Assembly: GCA_902579285.1 (NCBI GenBank)
Contig: CACHGA010000001.1
Coordinates: 287,411-351,410 of the forward strand
From: an uncultured Pelagibacteraceae bacterium
GTDB taxonomy: Bacteria; Pseudomonadota; Alphaproteobacteria; Pelagibacterales; Pelagibacteraceae
Reading direction: 5' to 3'
DNA: 64,000 bases
Part shown: in pieces, positions 3,865 through 26,824 of the stretch
Numbering within the stretch: the first letter of the stretch is position 1
How the letters are laid out: the number at the start of each line of letters is the position of its first letter
Program-made: the position numbers and the translations under genes
The notes under the pieces: model-generated
Databases searched by the model: none
Seen by the model: the letters and a program-made list of their open reading frames with translations, nothing else
Told to the model about the DNA's origin: nothing

Positions 3865-4329
3865 ATGTTTTTGTCAAGTTTCGAGAACAAAATAGACAAA
3901 AAGGGAAGGGTGTCAGTGCCGTCTAGCTTTAGAGCATATTTAAACTCAAAAGGTTTTAATAGTTTTATTGCCTATCCGTCTTTTAATCATGCTGCACTTG
4001 AGGGTTGTGCACAAGACAGAATTGAAAAATTATCAGACAGCATTGACTCTTTAGGCCCATTTGATGACAAAAGAGATTACTTTGCAACCTCAATTTTATC
4101 TCAAAGTATTAGTCTTAATTTTGATAGTGAGGGAAGAGTAACTATTCCTGAAAAATTACTTAAACACGCAAAAATAAAAACAAATATAATATTCGTTGGT
4201 TTAGGAAAAGTTTTTCAAATATGGGATCCAAACTCTTTTGAAAAATTCAAATCAATTGCAAAGAAGAAATCATATTTAAACAGATCAACTTTAAAATGGG
4301 AAAATAAATTTAAAAAGGAGGGTGTATGA
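3865..4329 (+). CDS. mraZ: Transcriptional regulator MraZ
   Basis: 'MFLSSFENKIDKKGRVSVPSSFRAYL' and 'FDSEGRVTIPEKLLKHAKI' AbrB-like double domain; head of dcw cluster. Confidence 0.95.
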   Translation: MFLSSFENKIDKKGRVSVPSSFRAYLNSKGFNSFIAYPSFNHAALEGCAQDRIEKLSDSIDSLGPFDDKRDYFATSILSQSISLNFDSEGRVTIPEKLLKHAKIKTNIIFVGLGKVFQIWDPNSFEKFKSIAKKKSYLNRSTLKWENKFKKEGV

Positions 4330-5765
4330 CAATTAATATAGGTGGTGGTGAATTAAAAGAACTTAAACCAAGAATCTTAGTAATGGGAATAGGTGGCGCT
4401 GGCGGAAATGCAATTAACGCGATGATCAATGATGGGCTACAAGGAGTAGAATTTGTTGCAGTAAATACAGATGCACAGGATTTAAAAGTAAATAAAGCAG
4501 ATGCCAAAATACAAATTGGTATGAATTTAACTAAAGGACTTGGCGCTGGAGCAAAACATGATATCGGTCAAGCGGCTGCTGACGAGTCTCTTAACGAAAT
4601 AGTAACATATTTACAAGGTGCTAATATGGTTTTTATAACTGCTGGAATGGGTGGTGGCACAGGTACAGGTGCTTCTCATGTTATAGCAAGAGCAGCTAAA
4701 GAATTAAATATTTTAACAATTGGGGTAATTACTTTGCCATTTTCTTACGAAGGTCCCAAAAGAATGAGAAGAGCGATGGAAGGTTGGGAAAAATTAAAAC
4801 AACATCTAGATACCTCAATAGTTGTTCCAAATCAGAATCTTTTCAAAGTTGCAAATGAAGCTACAACTTTCGAGAAATCATTTTCATTATCAAATGATGT
4901 TTTAAAACAAGGTGTTCAAAGTGTTACAGATTTAATGGTAAGACCAGGGCTAATTAATTTAGACTTTGCTGATGTTGAAACAGTAATGACATCTATGGGC
5001 AAAGCAATGATGGGTACTGGCGAGGCTGATGGTGAAAATAGAGCCTTAGCAGCAACAGAACTGGCACTAAACAATCCTTTAATAGATGATTATTCCTTAA
5101 AAGGAGCAAAAGGATTACTAGTTAATATTACTGGAGGAGAAGACATAAAGCTTTTTGAGGTTGATCAGGCTGTGAACAAAATTAGAGCCGAAGTTGACCC
5201 AGAAGCTGAACTTATTTTTGGTGCTATTAAAGATGAAAACTTAAATGGAAAAATGAGAGTATCTATTGTTGCAACAGCACTTGATGGAGAAAGCCCTCAT
5301 GGAAAAACAGTTTTAAATAATGTTCATAGAATTCATACGAGAGGTTCTGGTTATTCAGACGATATTCAAAACAATTTAATTATGCCTTCAATTCCAGAAC
5401 CAGGATCTATTCAGGGAGCAACTGCTTTAAAACTAGAAGAAGAAATTTCTACAAATCCTAATGAAGACTTAATTTCTGGGATATCATTAGAAAATGCATC
5501 TTTTGTTGAAAATAATTTAAATCAAGACCAAATCCAAGACAGTGTTAATGATGAACCCTTAGACGAAACAGTTATAGAGGATATTTCTCTTTACGAAGAT
5601 AAATCTCAAGATAGTTCACAAACTATTGAAAACGAAGTTTCCCCCCAATTATTTTCTGATGAGTTAACTAACGAAACCTCATCAGAAAGTAATGATCAAG
5701 AGGTGATAAAAAGTGAAGAAGAAGACTTTGAAATCCCTGCTTTCTTAAGAAAACAAAAATTCTAA
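4326..5765 (+). CDS. ftsZ: Cell division protein FtsZ
   Basis: Tubulin signature 'GMGGGTGTGAS', 'VNTDAQDL', C-terminal peptide 'FEIPAFLRKQ'; ATGA overlap with mraZ. Confidence 0.98.
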   Translation: MTINIGGGELKELKPRILVMGIGGAGGNAINAMINDGLQGVEFVAVNTDAQDLKVNKADAKIQIGMNLTKGLGAGAKHDIGQAAADESLNEIVTYLQGANMVFITAGMGGGTGTGASHVIARAAKELNILTIGVITLPFSYEGPKRMRRAMEGWEKLKQHLDTSIVVPNQNLFKVANEATTFEKSFSLSNDVLKQGVQSVTDLMVRPGLINLDFADVETVMTSMGKAMMGTGEADGENRALAATELALNNPLIDDYSLKGAKGLLVNITGGEDIKLFEVDQAVNKIRAEVDPEAELIFGAIKDENLNGKMRVSIVATALDGESPHGKTVLNNVHRIHTRGSGYSDDIQNNLIMPSIPEPGSIQGATALKLEEEISTNPNEDLISGISLENASFVENNLNQDQIQDSVNDEPLDETVIEDISLYEDKSQDSSQTIENEVSPQLFSDELTNETSSESNDQEVIKSEEEDFEIPAFLRKQKF

Positions 5766-5776
5766 TTTAAAAGTAG

Positions 5777-6790
5777 ATGAAAGATATTTCATCGTTAAAA
5801 AACTTGCCTCATTATCCAGTAATGTTGAAAGAGGTTTTAGATACTTGTAATCCAAAAAATGGCGGCTTGTTTGTAGACTGTACCTACGGCGCTGGGGGTT
5901 ATTCAAATGCAATACTATCATATCCAAATACACAAGTTATCGCATTAGATAGAGATCCAAATATTCATCACTATGCCAAAAAAACAAAAAAAAAATATGA
6001 AAATCGTTTTTCTTTCTACAACTCAAAATTTAGTGATTTAGATAAATTTGTATCTAAAAAATTAGAGGTAGACTGTATTATTTTTGATCTAGGTTTATCT
6101 TCTTTGCAAATATCAGACCTGAAGAGAGGCTTTTCCTTTTACTCAAAAGAAGAGCCAAACATGGGTATGGGTTTAAATAAAAATACTGCAAAAGAGATTT
6201 TAAATAATTTAGATGCAAAAACTCTTGGAAGTATATTTAGATTATTAGGTGAAGAAAAAGAAGGATTAAGGATATCCAAAAATATTTTGAGGGAACGAAA
6301 GCTAAATCCAATTAAAACTATACCTGACTTAGTAAAAATAATTCAAAAAAGCAAAAAAAAAAATTTTAAAAAAAAAACAAATATATCAACCCAAGTTTTC
6401 CAAGCATTGAGAATTTTTGTAAATAAGGAAATAACAGAATTAATCGAAGGTCTTATTATTGCAACTAAAATTTTAAAAGAAGACGGAAAAATAGTTGTAG
6501 TTACTTTTCATTCACTAGAGGACAAAATAGTTAAATTTTTCTTTACAAATTTTTCATCAAATAAATCAAAAACATCAAGATACTATCCAGAAAGAAAAGA
6601 TAAAAAAATTTTATTTAAAAATTACAAAAATAAAGTAATAAAACCAGATCTTGAAGAACTACAAGAAAATAATCCCTCAAGATCTGCAAAACTAAGACAT
6701 GCTATAAGGAGCAATCATAATTTTACATATCCCGAAGAATTCAAAAAAAAATTTTTACATTACATAGAGCTAGAAAAAATTGATGTTTAA
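5777..6790 (+). CDS. rsmH: 16S rRNA (cytosine(1402)-N(4))-methyltransferase RsmH
   Basis: 'HYPVMLKEVLD', 'VDCTYGAGGYSNAIL', 'DLGLSSLQISDLKRGFSF', 'STQVFQALRIFVNKE', 'VVTFHSLEDKIVKFFF', 'SRSAKLRHAIR'. Confidence 0.97.
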   Translation: MKDISSLKNLPHYPVMLKEVLDTCNPKNGGLFVDCTYGAGGYSNAILSYPNTQVIALDRDPNIHHYAKKTKKKYENRFSFYNSKFSDLDKFVSKKLEVDCIIFDLGLSSLQISDLKRGFSFYSKEEPNMGMGLNKNTAKEILNNLDAKTLGSIFRLLGEEKEGLRISKNILRERKLNPIKTIPDLVKIIQKSKKKNFKKKTNISTQVFQALRIFVNKEITELIEGLIIATKILKEDGKIVVVTFHSLEDKIVKFFFTNFSSNKSKTSRYYPERKDKKILFKNYKNKVIKPDLEELQENNPSRSAKLRHAIRSNHNFTYPEEFKKKFLHYIELEKIDV

Positions 6791-7078: not shown

Positions 7079-8815
7079 ATGATTAAAAAAAATATTAATA
7101 CAAATCAAAAGAGCTTTTTCTTTGAAGATAATAGCAATAAGTCATTGCAACAGACAAATAAAAGCAAACTTATGATAACCGAAGACAGGGTTTATTTACT
7201 TTTTTTTGTATTTTTTTGTTTAATATCAATTTTCACTATTAAAATTCTTTTATTGTCTCTAGGTAAAATTAATTATGAAAAAAATTCGATATATTTAAAT
7301 TCAAAATTCGAAATTTTTAGAAACGATATAGTAGATATAAATGGTATTCCTCTTGCTAGAAATACCGAGGTTTTTCATGCAGCAATCAAACCAAATCTAA
7401 TAAAAAATAAAAAAAACTTTTTATTAAAAATACAATTACTTTATCCGAATAAAAATATAAAAAAATTAAATCAAAACTTAAAAAAAAATAAATATTTTTA
7501 TTTTAAAAAAAATATTACAAAGGAAGAGCAGTTTAAATTATGGTCTTTAGGGGAAAAAGGTATACTTTTTGAGAAAACACAGACAAGAATATATCCTCAT
7601 AAAAACTTATTCAGTCATGTAATTGGTCAAGTTGATGAAGATAATAATGGAGTCTCTGGAATTGAAAAATCTTTTAATGATCATCTAAAATTTAATAAAA
7701 AATCATTAGTAACCACGTTAGATGCAAATATTCAATTTTTGATAAGAGAAGAACTTATAAATTTCCAAAAAATTTTTAATAGTATTGGAAGTGCATCTAT
7801 ATTAATGGATGTAAATAATGGTGATGTTCTTTCGTTGGTGTCACTTCCAGATTTTGACATAAACAAAAGACAAACTATTGATGATTTAAATTATATTAAT
7901 AGAGCCACAAAAGGTGTTTATGAGCTCGGATCAGTTTTTAAAACCTTTACTTTAGCTGGGGGTTTAAACGAAGGTGTAATAGAAACTGACTCCGAATTTA
8001 ATGATTTGCCAAAAAAAATTACTTGTGCAGGAAAATCTATTGGAGAGTACGATAACAAAATTCCCAATAATCTTTCCGCTGAGGAAATTTTAATTAGGTC
8101 AGGTAATATTGGTTCAGTCCGGATTGCTCAAAAAATTGGTGAGGTTAAAATGAGAAATTTTTTAGAAGAAATTGGTATAATAAATAAAATTAAATTTGAT
8201 ATAGAAGAAGTAGGACAGCCCTTACCTACAAAATGGGGAAAATGTAAGCTTGCAACAGCATCTTTTGGGCATGGGATAACAACTACATTACTACAACTTG
8301 CAAAAGGCTATTCTATAATATCAAACGGCGGTTATGATATTCAGCCCACCTTAATAAAAAAAGTGGATCAAACAATCAATCAAAAAAATAAAATTTTAAA
8401 AAATGGAATATCAAATAAAATCAATTCTATTTTAAGAAAAATTGTAACTCAAAAGGAGGGGACAGCCAATTTTGCTAACATTTATGGTTATGAAGTGGGA
8501 GGAAAAACTGGTACTGCCCAAAAGATTATAAATGGCACTTATTCCAAAAAAAAAATAAATACTTTTGTTGCTGTATTTCCAACTTCAAAACCAAAATATA
8601 TTCTTATAGTGCTATTAGACGAGCCAAAACCAAATAAAGACTATATTTATCATTACAAAGATGGGAGCGGATTGAAACTCAAAGGTACGCCATATAATAC
8701 AGCTGGATGGACATCAGTAGAGGTAGCCGGCAAAATAATAGAAAAAATTGGACCTATTTTAGCCATAAATAAAATTGATTTTTACGGCAATCATGTTGTT
8801 AAAAAAACTAATTAA
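7079..8815 (+). CDS. ftsI: Peptidoglycan D,D-transpeptidase FtsI (PBP3)
   Basis: 'YELGSVFKTFTLAGGL' (SxxK), 'SGN', 'GGKTGTAQK'; position in dcw. Confidence 0.95.
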   Translation: MIKKNINTNQKSFFFEDNSNKSLQQTNKSKLMITEDRVYLLFFVFFCLISIFTIKILLLSLGKINYEKNSIYLNSKFEIFRNDIVDINGIPLARNTEVFHAAIKPNLIKNKKNFLLKIQLLYPNKNIKKLNQNLKKNKYFYFKKNITKEEQFKLWSLGEKGILFEKTQTRIYPHKNLFSHVIGQVDEDNNGVSGIEKSFNDHLKFNKKSLVTTLDANIQFLIREELINFQKIFNSIGSASILMDVNNGDVLSLVSLPDFDINKRQTIDDLNYINRATKGVYELGSVFKTFTLAGGLNEGVIETDSEFNDLPKKITCAGKSIGEYDNKIPNNLSAEEILIRSGNIGSVRIAQKIGEVKMRNFLEEIGIINKIKFDIEEVGQPLPTKWGKCKLATASFGHGITTTLLQLAKGYSIISNGGYDIQPTLIKKVDQTINQKNKILKNGISNKINSILRKIVTQKEGTANFANIYGYEVGGKTGTAQKIINGTYSKKKINTFVAVFPTSKPKYILIVLLDEPKPNKDYIYHYKDGSGLKLKGTPYNTAGWTSVEVAGKIIEKIGPILAINKIDFYGNHVVKKTN

Positions 8816-11624
8816 AAATTTAAGTCCAGAAATTGGTGCGACTCAAATTAATGGTATTTGCTTTGACAGCAGGAAGGTCAAAAAGGGAGATTTATTTATT
8901 GCTATTAAAGGTGAAAAACATAATGGTAATAAATTTGTATCCCAGGCTGTTTCTAAAGGTGCGAAAGTAGTAATACATTCGGAAAAAATAAAAAAAAACA
9001 CAAAAACTAAATTTATAAAGTTCGCGGATACCAGAGATATATTAGCTAAAATAAGTTCAAAGTTTTTTAAAAATAAGCCCAAAAATATAATTGCAGTCAC
9101 CGGAACAAATGGAAAAACGTCAATATCAGATTTTTTTTACCAGATTTTTAAATTACAAAATCTTAAATCAGGTTTCATAGGAACACTTGGTTGTAGAAAA
9201 GATAAATTATTAAAAAAGAGAAACCTAACTTCTTTAGACTCATTAACATTGAACAAAGATCTAAATGAAATGAGTAGAATTAAAATAAATAATGTCATTA
9301 TTGAAGCATCTAGTCATGGTCTTAAACAAAAAAGATTAAATTTTTTAAAAATAAAAGCAGGTATTTTTACAAATTTAAGTCATGACCATTTGGACTATCA
9401 CAAAAATATGAAAAATTATTTTGAATCTAAGTTGCTTCTTTTTAAAGATCTTTTAAAAAAAAGAGGCACAGTAATAACAGACACTGATATTAAGCAATTT
9501 AAAGAAATAAAAAAAATTCAAAAAAAAAGGAAACTTAAAATGCTCAATATAGGGTTAAAGAGTAATACATTTGATATTTTAGATCATAAGATATTTGAGA
9601 ATTTTCAATATCTTAAAATTAAATACAAAAATAAAATATACAAACTAAGGATAAATCTTTATGGCTCAATTCAAATTAAGAATCTATTTATGGCAATTTT
9701 AGCTTCAAAAGTTTGTGGTCTCAAAGTTGAAAATATATTAAATAAAATTGATAGAATCGAAAGTGTTGAGGGAAGACTACAATTAAAAAGAATATTGACA
9801 AATAATTCAAAAATATTTTTAGATTATGCTCATACCCCGGAAGCTTTAGAAAAAGCAATATTATCATTGAGGGAACACTTTAATAAAAAAATATCTGTTA
9901 TTTTTGGATGTGGCGGCGAAAGAGACAAAAGCAAAAGAAAACTAATGGGAAAAATTGCAAGCAGATACTGTGATAAAATTTATATTACGGACGATAATCC
10001 AAGAAATGAAAATGCAAAAAAAATTAGAAAGGATATTATTAAAGGAATCAATCATTCTTTTGTTAGAGAAATCGGAAATAGAAAAAAAGCAATTATTTAT
10101 GCCTTAAAAAATTCTGATCCTTATGAAATAATTTTAGTTGCAGGAAAAGGACATGAAACACATCAAGAATTTGGAAATAAAAAAATTATTTTAAGTGATA
10201 AAAATATTATTAAAAATTTTAAAAACAAAAAAAATCTATCCAATACAAAAAATAATTTAAAATATAATGGTGTTATTATAAAAAAAATACTCAAAACAAA
10301 AAAAAATTACAATTTTAACGGCGTATCAATTGATTCTAAAACTACTAAGAAAAATAATTTATTTATAGCTATTAAAGGGAAAAAAAATGATGGACATAAT
10401 TTTTTAAAACAAGCAGTTTATAACGGTGCTAAATATTGTATAGTCAATAGAGTTAATCAGAATAAATCAAAATTTATTTACACAAAAAACACAATTAAAT
10501 TTCTCAATAAACTGGCAAAAGAAAAAAGAAATTTATCTTCTGCAAAGTTTATTGCTGTAACTGGAAGTACTGGAAAAACTACTGTAAAAACAATGCTTGG
10601 AAATCTATTAAATGAGTATTCGAAAACTTATTTTTCACCAAGGTCATTTAATAATCAGCTTGGAGTTCCATTAAGCATTTCTAATATGAATCCAGATCAT
10701 AAATTTGGAGTATTTGAAGTTGGAATGAGTAGATTTAATGAAATTAATAAACTTTCAGCCTTAGTAAAACCTCATTTAGGAATAATAACAAATATATCAG
10801 AGGCACACTTGGAAAATTTCAAAAATATTGATGATATTGCTAAAGCAAAAAGTGAAATTATTTATAATTTGCAAAAAGGAGGAACAGTTATTTTAAATCA
10901 AGATGATAAATTTTTTACGTATTTAAAAAAAATAGCTGATAAAAATAATATAAAGGTTATATCATTTGGTTATTCAAAAAAATCCCACATTAGATTTAAT
11001 AATTTGTTAGAAAAAAGGGGATTTTTCTTACTTACACTTTTTGTAAATAAAAAAAAACTTTTCTTAAAAATAAATAATAGAAACAAAAATTATATTATGA
11101 ATATTTTATCGTGTATTTCAATTATAAATGAATTGAATTTACCTTTTAATAAAATTAGAGATTTTTTTAAAAATAGAATACTCTTAAAAGGAAGAGGTAA
11201 AATTAGTAAAATTAATAAATTTAACAAAAAATTCTTTTTAATCGATGAGAGTTATAATGCAAACCCTTTATCTGTTAAATCAGCAATTCAGAACTTTTCA
11301 AACATAAAAAAAGGGGGAAAAAGAAAATACTTTCTTTTTGGGGATATGTTGGAACTAGGTAAGAATTCTCATATTTACCATAAAAAAATCTCTAAATTTA
11401 TAAATAATAGTGATATTGATAAAACTTATGTCTATGGAAGTAATGCTTCTGAAACATACAAAAGTTTAAATAAACAGAAACAAGGTGAGATAATAAAAGA
11501 TCTAAAATTGTTTAAAAACAAGATATTTAATGTTTTAAGAGACGGAGATTATTTGATGATAAAAGGTTCTAACGCTACGAGACTTCATGAGGTAACTAAA
11601 AAATTTATAGGAGGCAGCAATTAA
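8793..11624 (+). CDS. Fused MurE (meso-DAP ligase)-MurF
   Basis: N-terminal half: 'ITDDNPRNE' DAP motif, 'AVTGTNGKTS', 'VAGKGHETHQEF'. C-terminal half: 'VTGSTGKTTVKTML', 'SFNNQLGVPL', 'DESYNANPLSVKSAIQNF', 'GDMLELG'. Single open frame; listed ORF starts at 8775. Confidence 0.95.
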   Translation: MLLKKLIKNLSPEIGATQINGICFDSRKVKKGDLFIAIKGEKHNGNKFVSQAVSKGAKVVIHSEKIKKNTKTKFIKFADTRDILAKISSKFFKNKPKNIIAVTGTNGKTSISDFFYQIFKLQNLKSGFIGTLGCRKDKLLKKRNLTSLDSLTLNKDLNEMSRIKINNVIIEASSHGLKQKRLNFLKIKAGIFTNLSHDHLDYHKNMKNYFESKLLLFKDLLKKRGTVITDTDIKQFKEIKKIQKKRKLKMLNIGLKSNTFDILDHKIFENFQYLKIKYKNKIYKLRINLYGSIQIKNLFMAILASKVCGLKVENILNKIDRIESVEGRLQLKRILTNNSKIFLDYAHTPEALEKAILSLREHFNKKISVIFGCGGERDKSKRKLMGKIASRYCDKIYITDDNPRNENAKKIRKDIIKGINHSFVREIGNRKKAIIYALKNSDPYEIILVAGKGHETHQEFGNKKIILSDKNIIKNFKNKKNLSNTKNNLKYNGVIIKKILKTKKNYNFNGVSIDSKTTKKNNLFIAIKGKKNDGHNFLKQAVYNGAKYCIVNRVNQNKSKFIYTKNTIKFLNKLAKEKRNLSSAKFIAVTGSTGKTTVKTMLGNLLNEYSKTYFSPRSFNNQLGVPLSISNMNPDHKFGVFEVGMSRFNEINKLSALVKPHLGIITNISEAHLENFKNIDDIAKAKSEIIYNLQKGGTVILNQDDKFFTYLKKIADKNNIKVISFGYSKKSHIRFNNLLEKRGFFLLTLFVNKKKLFLKINNRNKNYIMNILSCISIINELNLPFNKIRDFFKNRILLKGRGKISKINKFNKKFFLIDESYNANPLSVKSAIQNFSNIKKGGKRKYFLFGDMLELGKNSHIYHKKISKFINNSDIDKTYVYGSNASETYKSLNKQKQGEIIKDLKLFKNKIFNVLRDGDYLMIKGSNATRLHEVTKKFIGGSN

Positions 11625-18442: not shown

Positions 18443-19375
18443 TTGAGAACAAAGAAAAAAATTTTAGTTGTACTGGGAGGCAACTCCAATGAAAGAAAAG
18501 TAAGTTTAGATTCTGGCAAGTCATGTATTTCAGCTTTAAATAAGATGGGTTATAATTCAATTAAATTTGATCCCCAAAAAAACTCTTTACATAATATTAG
18601 GAAAATCAGTCCAGACGTCATATTTAATGCCCTTCATGGTAAAGATGGAGAAGACGGTAATATTCAAAGTTTTTTTGAATACCTAAAGATTCCATATACA
18701 CATTCCGGAGTTCTTTCTTCAATGATTGCGATGGACAAGTTTTTATCTAAAAAGTTTTTTGAAAAAAACAATATTATAACCCCAAAATATTTCTATCTAA
18801 ACAAAAAAAATTATTTAAACACAACTTTGAAAAAACTTATAAAAAAAAATAAACTAACCTTTCCAATAGTTGTTAAACCAAATAATGAAGGTTCAAGTAT
18901 CGGGGTAAGAATATGTAAAAACTTAGCTATATTACAAAAGGAATTTAAGAAATTAAATAAAGTTTATGAAAACTTGTTATTTGAGAATTATATACCTGGT
19001 CAAGAAATACAAGTTGCTCTGATGGGAGGTAAATCTATAGGAGCCATAGAACTAAAACCCAAAAGAGCTTTTTATGACTATAAAGCAAAATATAAAAAAT
19101 CTGCAAACACATTACATATAATGCCAGCTCAGATAAGCAGAAAAAAATATAATCAAGTTTTAAGGATATCAGAAAAAGCTTATAAAATTCTTAAATGCAA
19201 AGGAATAGCTAGGTGTGATTTTAGATTTCATAAAAATACTTTTTATCTCTTAGAATTAAATACTCAACCTGGAATGACTAGTTTGTCTCTTGTTCCAGAA
19301 ATAGCGAATTATTCAAATATTTCATTTAAACAATTAGTTAATTGGATGATAAAAGATTCTAGCATAAATAGATGA
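18443..19375 (+). CDS. ddl: D-alanine--D-alanine ligase
   Basis: 'VVLGGNSNERKVSLDSG', 'FNALHGKDGEDGNIQ', 'KPNNEGSSIGV', 'ELNTQPGMTSLSLVP'. TTG start. Confidence 0.96.
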   Translation: MRTKKKILVVLGGNSNERKVSLDSGKSCISALNKMGYNSIKFDPQKNSLHNIRKISPDVIFNALHGKDGEDGNIQSFFEYLKIPYTHSGVLSSMIAMDKFLSKKFFEKNNIITPKYFYLNKKNYLNTTLKKLIKKNKLTFPIVVKPNNEGSSIGVRICKNLAILQKEFKKLNKVYENLLFENYIPGQEIQVALMGGKSIGAIELKPKRAFYDYKAKYKKSANTLHIMPAQISRKKYNQVLRISEKAYKILKCKGIARCDFRFHKNTFYLLELNTQPGMTSLSLVPEIANYSNISFKQLVNWMIKDSSINR

Positions 19376-20046
19376 AAACAAAAAAAAATTTATTTATATG
19401 GATATTTATATTTATTTTCCTATCAACATATAGCTTAAACGCAATACAAAAAAAAAAAATTTCATTTTTTTTAATAAAAAAAATTAATGTTGAAGGTCTT
19501 TTAAACGTTAATAGTTACGATTTAGAAAGCTCGCTTGAAGAATTTTATGGAAAAAATCTTATTTTTTTAAATAGAGAAAAATTCAATGAAATAGGAAGTA
19601 AATTTAGTTTTATCAAAGAGATAAAAATTAAAAAAATTTATCCAAGCACATTAAATATAATAGTAAAAGAAAATAAACCATTAGGTATTTTTATTGAAAA
19701 AGATAAAAAAATACTACTTTTAGAAAATGGTAACGAAATTTTAAATTTTAAATTAAATGCAGAAAAAAACTTATTGTTTGTAAAAGGTGAAGGTGCTAGA
19801 AAAAAATTTCATAAATTTTATGAAATTTTAGAAACCACAAATTTTGAAATAGAATTAATACAAGAATTAAATCATTTTGATGTAAATAGGTGGGATATTG
19901 TTTTAAAGAATGGTAAAGTAGTGAAGTTACCAACAGATAGATTTAAAGGATCTATTGAAAAATTTATATCAATCTATGATAAAGATAATTTTAGTAATTT
20001 TAAAATATTTGACTTTAGAATTAATGGACAGCTTATTTTGGAATAG
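19372..20046 (+). CDS. ftsQ: Cell division protein FtsQ (POTRA domain)
   Basis: N-terminal TM, POTRA-like 'INVEGLLNVNSYDLESSLEEFYGKNLIFLN', position between ddl and ftsA. Confidence 0.85.
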   Translation: MKTKKNLFIWIFIFIFLSTYSLNAIQKKKISFFLIKKINVEGLLNVNSYDLESSLEEFYGKNLIFLNREKFNEIGSKFSFIKEIKIKKIYPSTLNIIVKENKPLGIFIEKDKKILLLENGNEILNFKLNAEKNLLFVKGEGARKKFHKFYEILETTNFEIELIQELNHFDVNRWDIVLKNGKVVKLPTDRFKGSIEKFISIYDKDNFSNFKIFDFRINGQLILE

Positions 20047-20052
20047 GAGCTT

Positions 20053-21240
20053 ATGAGCCAAGATAATTTAATTGCTGAAATAGCGGACGATAAAATTCGT
20101 TATATAATTTATAAACATAATGAGAAATCTAATTATGAAATCCTATCTAAAAAAATCTTAAAAAATAACGGTATCAAAAAAGGAAAAATACTTGATTTTG
20201 AATATACCTCAAAAAAAATTAACGAAGACATTAAAGGACTTGAAAAAGATACAAATAAAATATTTAAAAATATTTCTTTGGTAATAAATGAACCCGAAAT
20301 TTCATGTACTAATCTTTCAGGATATAAAAAACTTAATGGATCAAAAGTAGAAAAAAGAGATTTAGAATATATACTTAACGAAGCACAAATATCGATATCT
20401 CAAAATCAAGAGAACAATTCAATTTTACACATTATTAACTCAAACTTTATTTTAGATAAAATTAAAAAAAATAAGATACCTTTAGACTTGCATGGCGATC
20501 ACTTAAGTCTACATATGACATTTATTTCATTACCTAAAAACAATTTAAAAAATATTAAGGCTTTATTTGACAGCAATGATTTAAAAATTGACAGAATTAT
20601 AAGCAAGCCTTTAGCATGTGGCATAAAATTACTTAATCAAAATAAAAAAAATAAAAATTTTTTTTTAATAAACATTGATAAAGAAACTAGCTTTATTTCG
20701 CTTTTCGAAGAATCTTCTTTGGTCTTCACTAAAATATTTCCATTTGGAACAAATTCTATTATTAATGATATTAGCAAGCTTTGTTCCTTAAACGAAAATG
20801 ACGTAAGATCAATTATTAAAAAAATAGACTTTAAAAACACAACCAATAATAAAAATTATATAGATCAAAATTTATTTAAAGAATCAAAATTTAAGAAATT
20901 AAGCATCCAACATATAAAAGAAATAATAAATGCCCGAGTAGTCGAAATACTTGACCATTTATTTAACAAAAATAATAATTTAAAATATGCAAATAAAAAG
21001 GCATTAAGAATTGATATTTTTTTTGAGGATAAAGAAATTTTGGACTTTTTAGGGAGCACTTTTTATGAAAATTTAAAAGTCGACAATTTGGAGACCGAAA
21101 TTAAATTAATACAATTAGATGATTTTTTCGCTCTCTCAGGTGCTGCTGAACTTATTTATAAAGGATGGGATAAAGAAGCTATTCCTTTAAATGTAAGAAA
21201 AAAGTCAGTAATTTCAAGATTTTTTGAGCGTTTTTTTTAA
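20053..21240 (+). CDS. ftsA: FtsA-like cell division protein with degenerate actin-fold motifs
   Basis: Position after ftsQ; 'FPFGTNSIINDISKLCSLNENDVRSIIKK' resembles the FtsA GG-x-IT-xDI segment; C-terminal amphipathic tail 'VISRFFERFF'. Confidence 0.8.
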   Translation: MSQDNLIAEIADDKIRYIIYKHNEKSNYEILSKKILKNNGIKKGKILDFEYTSKKINEDIKGLEKDTNKIFKNISLVINEPEISCTNLSGYKKLNGSKVEKRDLEYILNEAQISISQNQENNSILHIINSNFILDKIKKNKIPLDLHGDHLSLHMTFISLPKNNLKNIKALFDSNDLKIDRIISKPLACGIKLLNQNKKNKNFFLINIDKETSFISLFEESSLVFTKIFPFGTNSIINDISKLCSLNENDVRSIIKKIDFKNTTNNKNYIDQNLFKESKFKKLSIQHIKEIINARVVEILDHLFNKNNNLKYANKKALRIDIFFEDKEILDFLGSTFYENLKVDNLETEIKLIQLDDFFALSGAAELIYKGWDKEAIPLNVRKKSVISRFFERFF

Positions 21241-21312
21241 AAATAATTTTTTGTAGTTTTTTGTAATATTTGTTGTTTTTAAGTCATTTTCAACTTTTTG
21301 TATATTTTCCAC

Positions 21313-22242
21313 ATGTGGGAAAACAAACAAAAAACTCTAAATAAATCTGTAGATTTTTTAGGAACAGGGCTGCATTCAGGCAAAACAATCTCTATGAAAC
21401 TTCACCCCGCCGAAGCAAATACAGGAATTGTATTCAGGAGAACTGATTTAAAAAAGAACAATGAGATAAAAGCTAACTACGAAAATGTTTCTTCAGCAAA
21501 ACTTTGCACAAAAATAGAAAATGACCAAGGTGTTTCGATTTCAACTATAGAACATTTAATGGCTTCTTTTTATATTTGTGGTGTAGATAATTCTGTGGTT
21601 GAGTTAAACAACGAAGAAGTTCCTATAATGGACGGGTCAGCAATTGAATTTGTTAAAAAAATTAAAGAAATCGGTTTAAAGACATTGGAGGAGAACAGAA
21701 AGTTCATCAAAATTAAAAAAAGAGTTGAATTAAAATTAGATGACAAGTCAATATCTATAGAACCATCATCTGAAAGTTTAAAAGTTGCTTTTACACTTAG
21801 CTATGAGAATAATCCTTTGATCAGATCACAAACAAACTGCGTAGACTTTAAAGATAAAAATCTAGAAAATATCTACTCTGCAAGAACTTTTTGTTTGTAT
21901 GAAGATATTGAAAAAGTAAAATCTTTAGGTTTGGCCAAAGGCGGTAATCTAGATAACGCTGTTGTTATCAAGGGGGACAAAGTTTTAAATAAAAAAGGCC
22001 TTAGATCTAAAAATGAATTTGTAAATCATAAAATTTTAGACTTAGCAGGAGATTTTATGTTAACTGGTAAAAGAGTAATTGGTTCTGTATCTTGCATGCA
22101 TGGTGGCCATTTACTTACTAATGATTTTCTTAGAAAATTACTATCAGATCAAAGCAATTTCACAGTTGTAGAAAGTATTCAAAATATATCGAATCTTAAA
22201 AAAATTGCTCCCAACCAAAAAAGAATTGCTGTAAACGCCTAA
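21313..22242 (+). CDS. lpxC: UDP-3-O-acyl-N-acetylglucosamine deacetylase
   Basis: 'GTGLHSGKTISMKLHPA', 'STIEHLMASFYICGVDN', 'EVPIMDGSAIEFV', 'NEFVNHKILDLAGDF'. Confidence 0.97.
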   Translation: MWENKQKTLNKSVDFLGTGLHSGKTISMKLHPAEANTGIVFRRTDLKKNNEIKANYENVSSAKLCTKIENDQGVSISTIEHLMASFYICGVDNSVVELNNEEVPIMDGSAIEFVKKIKEIGLKTLEENRKFIKIKKRVELKLDDKSISIEPSSESLKVAFTLSYENNPLIRSQTNCVDFKDKNLENIYSARTFCLYEDIEKVKSLGLAKGGNLDNAVVIKGDKVLNKKGLRSKNEFVNHKILDLAGDFMLTGKRVIGSVSCMHGGHLLTNDFLRKLLSDQSNFTVVESIQNISNLKKIAPNQKRIAVNA

Positions 22243-22291
22243 TTAGGAAACATAATTTTACGTTAAGTATTTTTTTTGTTATTAATACTTG

Positions 22292-26824
<4,533 letters not shown>

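Follow-up and report, generated by a model that had tools for sequence, protein, structure and literature searches.

What ATP does for FtsA, the actin-like protein of cell division, is a long-standing question: ATP controls polymerisation and membrane binding of FtsA in S. pneumoniae, and mutations of the pocket inactivate the FtsA of E. coli (PMC5832921). The question is raised by a stretch of 64,000 nucleotides (hereafter the window) from an uncultured bacterium of the Pelagibacteraceae (contig CACHGA010000001.1, positions 287,411 to 351,410), the ftsA gene of which encodes a protein without the motifs for binding nucleotide: How could such a protein still serve cell division? A preliminary description of the locus had reported that the phosphate-1 (P1), phosphate-2 (P2) and adenosine motifs were replaced while the C-terminal amphipathic tail was kept, and had proposed a non-ATP-binding membrane tether for FtsZ. 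The open reading frame, its coordinates and all four peptides quoted in that description are exactly as it gave them. The gene and the positions at issue are these:

20053..21240, + strand: ftsA, 395 amino acids, divergent and without nucleotide-binding motifs (open reading frame list, Pfam, TIGR01174, PDB sequence matches, AlphaFold, Foldseek).
20071..20103, + strand: former phosphate-1 region, residues 7-17, IAEIADDKIRY instead of AAxDxGSSKxC, with D9->E and G11->A (alignment).
20659..20694, + strand: former phosphate-2 region, residues 203-214, FFLINIDKETSF instead of xxxIDMGGGTTS, with D207->N and G209->D (alignment).
20815..20817, + strand: residue 255, Ile here and generally Lys in FtsA (alignment).
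21004..21048, + strand: former adenosine motif, residues 318-332, LRIDIFFEDKEILDF instead of RRVVLTGGASQLxGV, with G325->E (alignment).

A scan of genome contigs returned 36 related loci, all from single-cell genomes or metagenome-assembled genomes (MAGs) of Pelagibacteraceae or Pelagibacterales, at which the same protein is encoded at full or near-full length; the nearest relatives are AG-422-A21 and AG-430-F10, with 77% identity. One of the MAGs is labelled SAR11 IIa.A; we assign the window organism to SAR11 subclade II. Its genus (g1 in the following) and a neighbouring genus (g4) are monophyletic together (16/16, bootstrap 100) and form the window clade, with 18 FtsA proteins. We aligned 26 FtsA proteins spanning the Alphaproteobacteria with 62 long FtsA proteins of SAR11, taking as reference the SAR11 genera that have the motifs (g5, g6, g7, g8 and g10), and selected the sites conserved to at least 90% both in the class and in these reference genera, which gave 21 sites. 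Seven belong to the nucleotide site, namely D9, G11, D207, G209, T213, K255 (presumably the lysine that contacts adenosine in proteins of the actin type) and G325; they are conserved to 92-100% in the class and to 100% in the reference genera. In the 18 proteins of g1 and g4, conservation is 0% for D9, D207, K255 and G325, 6% for G11, 28% for T213 and 33% for G209. None of these seven sites (0/7), but 12/14 of the others, survive in at least half of the window clade, and the chance of such an outcome, if survival were random, is C(9,7)/C(21,7)=3e-4; E64, H126, D135, P143, N167, G232, D239, R295 and E298 are kept in every protein of the clade. The motif residues are lost in 18/18 clade proteins, whereas they are mostly retained in the other genera of Pelagibacteraceae and in the remaining Alphaproteobacteria; the loss counts as one historical event, of which the 18 sequences are not independent cases. 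Acidic residues are frequent among the replacements in what were the glycine loops: in the window clade, P1 has 2.4-2.9 of them where the reference proteins have ~1, and the adenosine loop has 1.6-2.4, up from 0-0.4. Alignment with the FtsA proteins of the class and of SAR11 thus bears out the replacement of all three motifs that had been claimed. The analysis goes beyond that claim in two respects: the loss is clade-wide, and some relatives have deleted a whole domain. A pocket rebuilt from alternative residues, which the preliminary description had considered, is not seen in the sequence. We infer that the FtsA of subclade II has probably lost nucleotide binding.

What the protein has kept is equally informative, and comprises three elements:

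20296..20526, + strand: subdomain 1C (SHS2), residues 82-158, retained, with H126, D135 and P143 conserved (Pfam SHS2_FTSA 3e-9, alignment).
20935..20946, + strand: R295-x-x-E298, which corresponds to R301/E304 of Thermotoga FtsA, in the putative FtsZ-tail site of subdomain 2B (alignment).
21208..21237, + strand: C-terminal amphipathic membrane-targeting helix VISRFFERFF (model helix 386-394, hydrophobic moment, relatives' tails).

An AlphaFold2 model of the window FtsA, computed with 30 family sequences, has a mean predicted local distance difference test score (pLDDT) of 87 and a predicted TM score (pTM) of 0.86. Ranks 1-19 of its Foldseek comparison are all FtsA chains, with TM scores of 0.60-0.74 by query length, and PilM comes next; structure prediction, suggested earlier as a check, hence returned an FtsA fold, and Pfam and Foldseek agree on an actin fold with the 1C/SHS2 subdomain. 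In Thermotoga FtsA, the 2B helix with R301 and E304 lines the site for the FtsZ tail. By alignment R295 pairs with R301 and E298 with E304, so that the residues of the putative FtsZ site are present; they are two of only seven invariant columns in the 30-sequence family alignment, occur in 100% of the window clade and are invariant across all the long SAR11 FtsA proteins aligned. The C-terminal tail, which the preliminary description rightly regarded as kept, has a hydrophobic moment of 0.78, reached by 2.3% of shuffles, and is predicted as helix over residues 386-394; all SAR11 relatives have a similar amphipathic tail. The frame is open in all 12 congeners with a match. Purifying selection on the gene is strong: among the pairs for which dS is usable, the ratio of nonsynonymous to synonymous substitution rates (dN/dS) is 0.05-0.06 in a close trio (G002, G007 and G008) and 0.08-0.15 in wider pairs, in which dS is near saturation. 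An assembly error or a pseudogene in the window is rejected by this ratio, by the clade-wide pattern and by the independence of the single-cell genomes.

Is this protein, then, a true FtsA? Its match to TIGR01174 (E=9.9e-43, 146.6 bits) does not reach the curated equivalog cut-off of 175.85, which 190/198 SAR11 genomes likewise miss; Pfam SHS2_FTSA is recognised with E=3e-9, and the sequence matches in the PDB are FtsA chains only. The gene follows ftsQ, the position of ftsA in the dcw cluster, both in the window and in its relatives:

19372..20046, + strand: ftsQ, upstream neighbour of ftsA (Pfam POTRA_1 and FtsQ_DivIB_C).
21298..22242, + strand: lpxC, downstream neighbour of ftsA (synteny).

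The gene order in the window is ddl-ftsQ-ftsA-lpxC-bamD, of which ddl-ftsQ-ftsA-lpxC is common to the relatives. By sequence, synteny and predicted fold the 395-residue product is a true FtsA. An identity with MreB is rejected, as the MreB-like match lies at another site and ranks far under FtsA in structure; so is that of an adaptor of the PilM/GspL type, since PilM ranks beneath every FtsA in Foldseek and the locus is that of dcw. A second FtsA was not found with the TIGR01174 profile in the window genome, which is 80% complete: its other matches are MreB (G000:C1:334060, within the window) and a weak one in a 643-residue frame of Hsp70-like length, and a canonical copy elsewhere was rejected on these grounds. 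The lpxC gene stands directly 3' of ftsA in the SAR11 relatives read, of the window family (f1) and its sister family (f2) alike. In the same region bamD is followed directly by ligA (window 22289-25136), and a search for recN (TIGR00634) in 15 SAR11 genomes gave no match above cut-off, with weak matches within larger proteins in three. Further upstream, a single 949-residue frame at 8775-11624 seems to be a fusion of murE and murF.

A tether requires its partner, and ftsZ, being absent beside ftsA, might have been thought lost; this is rejected by its presence elsewhere in the window:

4326..5765, + strand: ftsZ, sole copy found in the genome, away from ftsA, between mraZ and rsmH.
5730..5762, + strand: EIPAFLRKQKF, the conserved C-terminal peptide by which FtsZ docks on FtsA, still present.

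The gene heads the dcw cluster (mraZ-ftsZ-rsmH) rather than following ftsA. EIPAFLRKQ or EIPAFLRRQ plus two residues ends 25/25 family FtsZ proteins read to the end. A search of 16 SAR11 genomes for SepF and ZipA found neither, and the idea that one of these two has taken over as the tether is rejected.

A different route to a comparable end is evident in another, large SAR11 genus, g3, which is probably Pelagibacter. The slot between ftsQ and lpxC is often occupied there by a short open reading frame. With a profile built from eight short forms, a complete FtsA of 220-245 residues was counted in 83/147 sampled g3 genomes and the long form in ~35; in the remainder the gene is incomplete or broken, or was not found. 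The copies of 220-235 residues at L076, L082, L083, L084, L087, L089, L090 and L091 are of the short kind. This form is scarcely detected by Pfam on its own, whereas profile and fold comparison do recognise it: it aligns to the window FtsA over residues 4-190 (hhalign probability 99.4%, E=1.7e-21), and in comparisons with its AlphaFold model (pLDDT 79.5) FtsA chains rank first over ~190 columns. Once the last 11 residues are trimmed off, its C-terminus corresponds to the C-terminal helix region in the long FtsA proteins of g3 (96.9%, E=1.5e-10), against a probability of 0.1% for their middle region; a global alignment had placed this C-terminus at the P2 region, an artefact that the profile comparison overturned. 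Because the short form matches residues 4-190 plus the C-terminal helix region and not the middle, domain 2 (subdomains 2A and 2B, with the ATP pocket and the FtsZ site) has been excised, the last helix of 1A, the linker and the tail having been rejoined into a protein of 1A, 1C and tail. A loss-only count on the LpxC+Ddl+FtsQ tree, in which some deep g3 nodes have weak support (44-54), gives four truncations in g3; a long group, HTCC1062-like as we presume, joins the short form of G067 with support 94 inside a 39-member clade with support 100. On this tree the excision arose about four times. In the complete genome G066 the short ftsA (L085) is frameshifted at ~5950-5975 near a poly-T/poly-A tract, which may be an error of sequencing, a genuine lesion or an effect of slippage. 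FtsZ retains its C-terminal peptide in the genomes with short FtsA even though 2B is gone, and therefore the peptide must bind there to something other than the canonical 2B site. We found no earlier report of domain-2 excision or of motif-less SAR11 FtsA in the literature searched, the coverage of which excluded most subscription papers.

Other SAR11 lineages depart less far from the canonical protein. In the sister family f2 (L039-L056) the P1 glycine is changed to Arg (DIR, DIRADK) and the P2 glycine is replaced (DIQ/DIN; by Gln in DIQKNKT), with the adenosine motif kept; the phosphate site has thus been altered in a third manner. Genera g2 and g9 (L016, L017 and L018) have the P1 Asp changed to Glu and keep the P2 and adenosine motifs, a state that looks like an intermediate. 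The three cases of subclade II, g3 and f2 suggest that SAR11 has, more than once, become less dependent on ATP bound to FtsA.

Compared with known systems, the window protein shares with the FtsA of E. coli and Thermotoga maritima (TIGR01174; PDB 7q6d, 1e4g, 4a2a) the operon position, the four-subdomain actin fold with the 1C (SHS2) insertion, the R301/E304-equivalent pair in 2B and the C-terminal amphipathic helix, differing in the lack of the P1, P2 and adenosine motifs and in its score below the TIGR01174 cut-off. The FtsA proteins of g5, g8, g10 and long g3 are its orthologs, with shared synteny, similar length and the same type of tail, while keeping the DxG, DxG and GxG motifs. Truncated g3 FtsA occupies the same locus, has 1A, 1C and tail, and presumably lacks a usable ATP site too; yet it lost that site by excision of domain 2, FtsZ site included, and not by point change. 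The cytoplasmic domain of GspL, an actin fold not known to have a full ATPase site, and PilM are structurally similar adaptors of membrane machines, but they serve secretion and pilus systems, score lower than FtsA in structure and have no known link to FtsZ.

The simplest explanation, and in our view a probable one, is that the FtsA of subclade II would be a nucleotide-independent membrane adaptor tethering FtsZ, because the FtsZ-site pair, the 1C core, the tail and the FtsZ peptide are kept and neither SepF nor ZipA was found; with the gene under selection and the fold confidently predicted, the role first proposed for this protein remains the best reading. Three points weigh against it. The degenerate pocket could still hold nucleotide weakly through backbone contacts; the FtsZ-binding residues of the window FtsA are assigned by alignment; and the ATP site is needed for function, polymerisation and membrane attachment of FtsA in E. 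coli and S. pneumoniae (PMC5832921, PMC10213515), because of which complete ATP independence would be unusual. A stronger form of the first is that the site has been rewritten, so that FtsA still binds nucleotide via alternative residues and responds to ATP. Fold and cleft are indeed predicted intact, the P1 Asp is changed to Glu in all congeners, preserving the acid, and g2 and g9 tolerate this change alone with the P2 and adenosine motifs present. Nevertheless, three motifs and K255 were lost together, acidic residues often stand at glycine positions, and the replacements differ within the clade (e.g., at 11-13, 209-211 and 325-327), as for sites freed from ligand binding; we hold a rewritten pocket to be distinctly improbable.

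That FtsA no longer tethers FtsZ is an unlikely alternative, in which it would act mainly via 1C and tail on FtsN/FtsQLB-FtsWI and the FtsZ peptide would serve another partner. In E. coli, 2B binds FtsZ and 1C recruits FtsN (PMC8998562), and the truncated relatives lack the 2B site with the FtsZ peptide kept; against this, the complete conservation of R295 and E298 in the window clade would be left unexplained. It is very improbable, finally, that ftsA is decaying and on its way to being lost from SAR11, with no more than a dying or dispensable remnant left in the window. FtsA does diverge much faster than FtsZ (69% vs 85% identity to G012), and relatives have truncated it or, as in G066, carry a frameshifted copy; however, frames are intact clade-wide, dN/dS stays at 0.05-0.15, residues outside the pocket are invariant, and the architecture remains precise, with the tail in place, even where the protein is truncated.

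In evolutionary terms, a nucleotide-independent tether would have arisen when the ancestor of g1 and g4 gave up the use of ATP, leaving an FtsA fixed in one conformation and held on the membrane by its tail. Subdomain 2B would bind the C-terminal peptide of FtsZ and 1C would contact downstream divisome proteins, with no ATP-driven switching, so that division in SAR11 would be timed by the GTP turnover of FtsZ and by periplasmic signals, not by an ATP cycle of FtsA. In g3 the same trend may have ended in the excision of domain 2, leaving a half-actin of 1A, 1C and tail. We lean, if only by a little, towards the broader view that SAR11 repeatedly turned FtsA into a nucleotide-free adaptor, through loss of the pocket in subclade II and through excision of domain 2 about four times in g3, where a half-actin would support division with neither ATP nor the canonical FtsZ site. 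Natural FtsA proteins that lack the pocket, or the entire ATP-binding half, offer an evolutionary view of ATP-free function and of the irreducible part of the protein (1A, 1C and tail); their carriers belong to SAR11, which ranks with the most abundant bacteria on Earth, and because sister genera differ in this respect, the question can be tested on purified proteins. Such proteins suggest that the FtsA actin may serve cell division without acting as an ATP switch.
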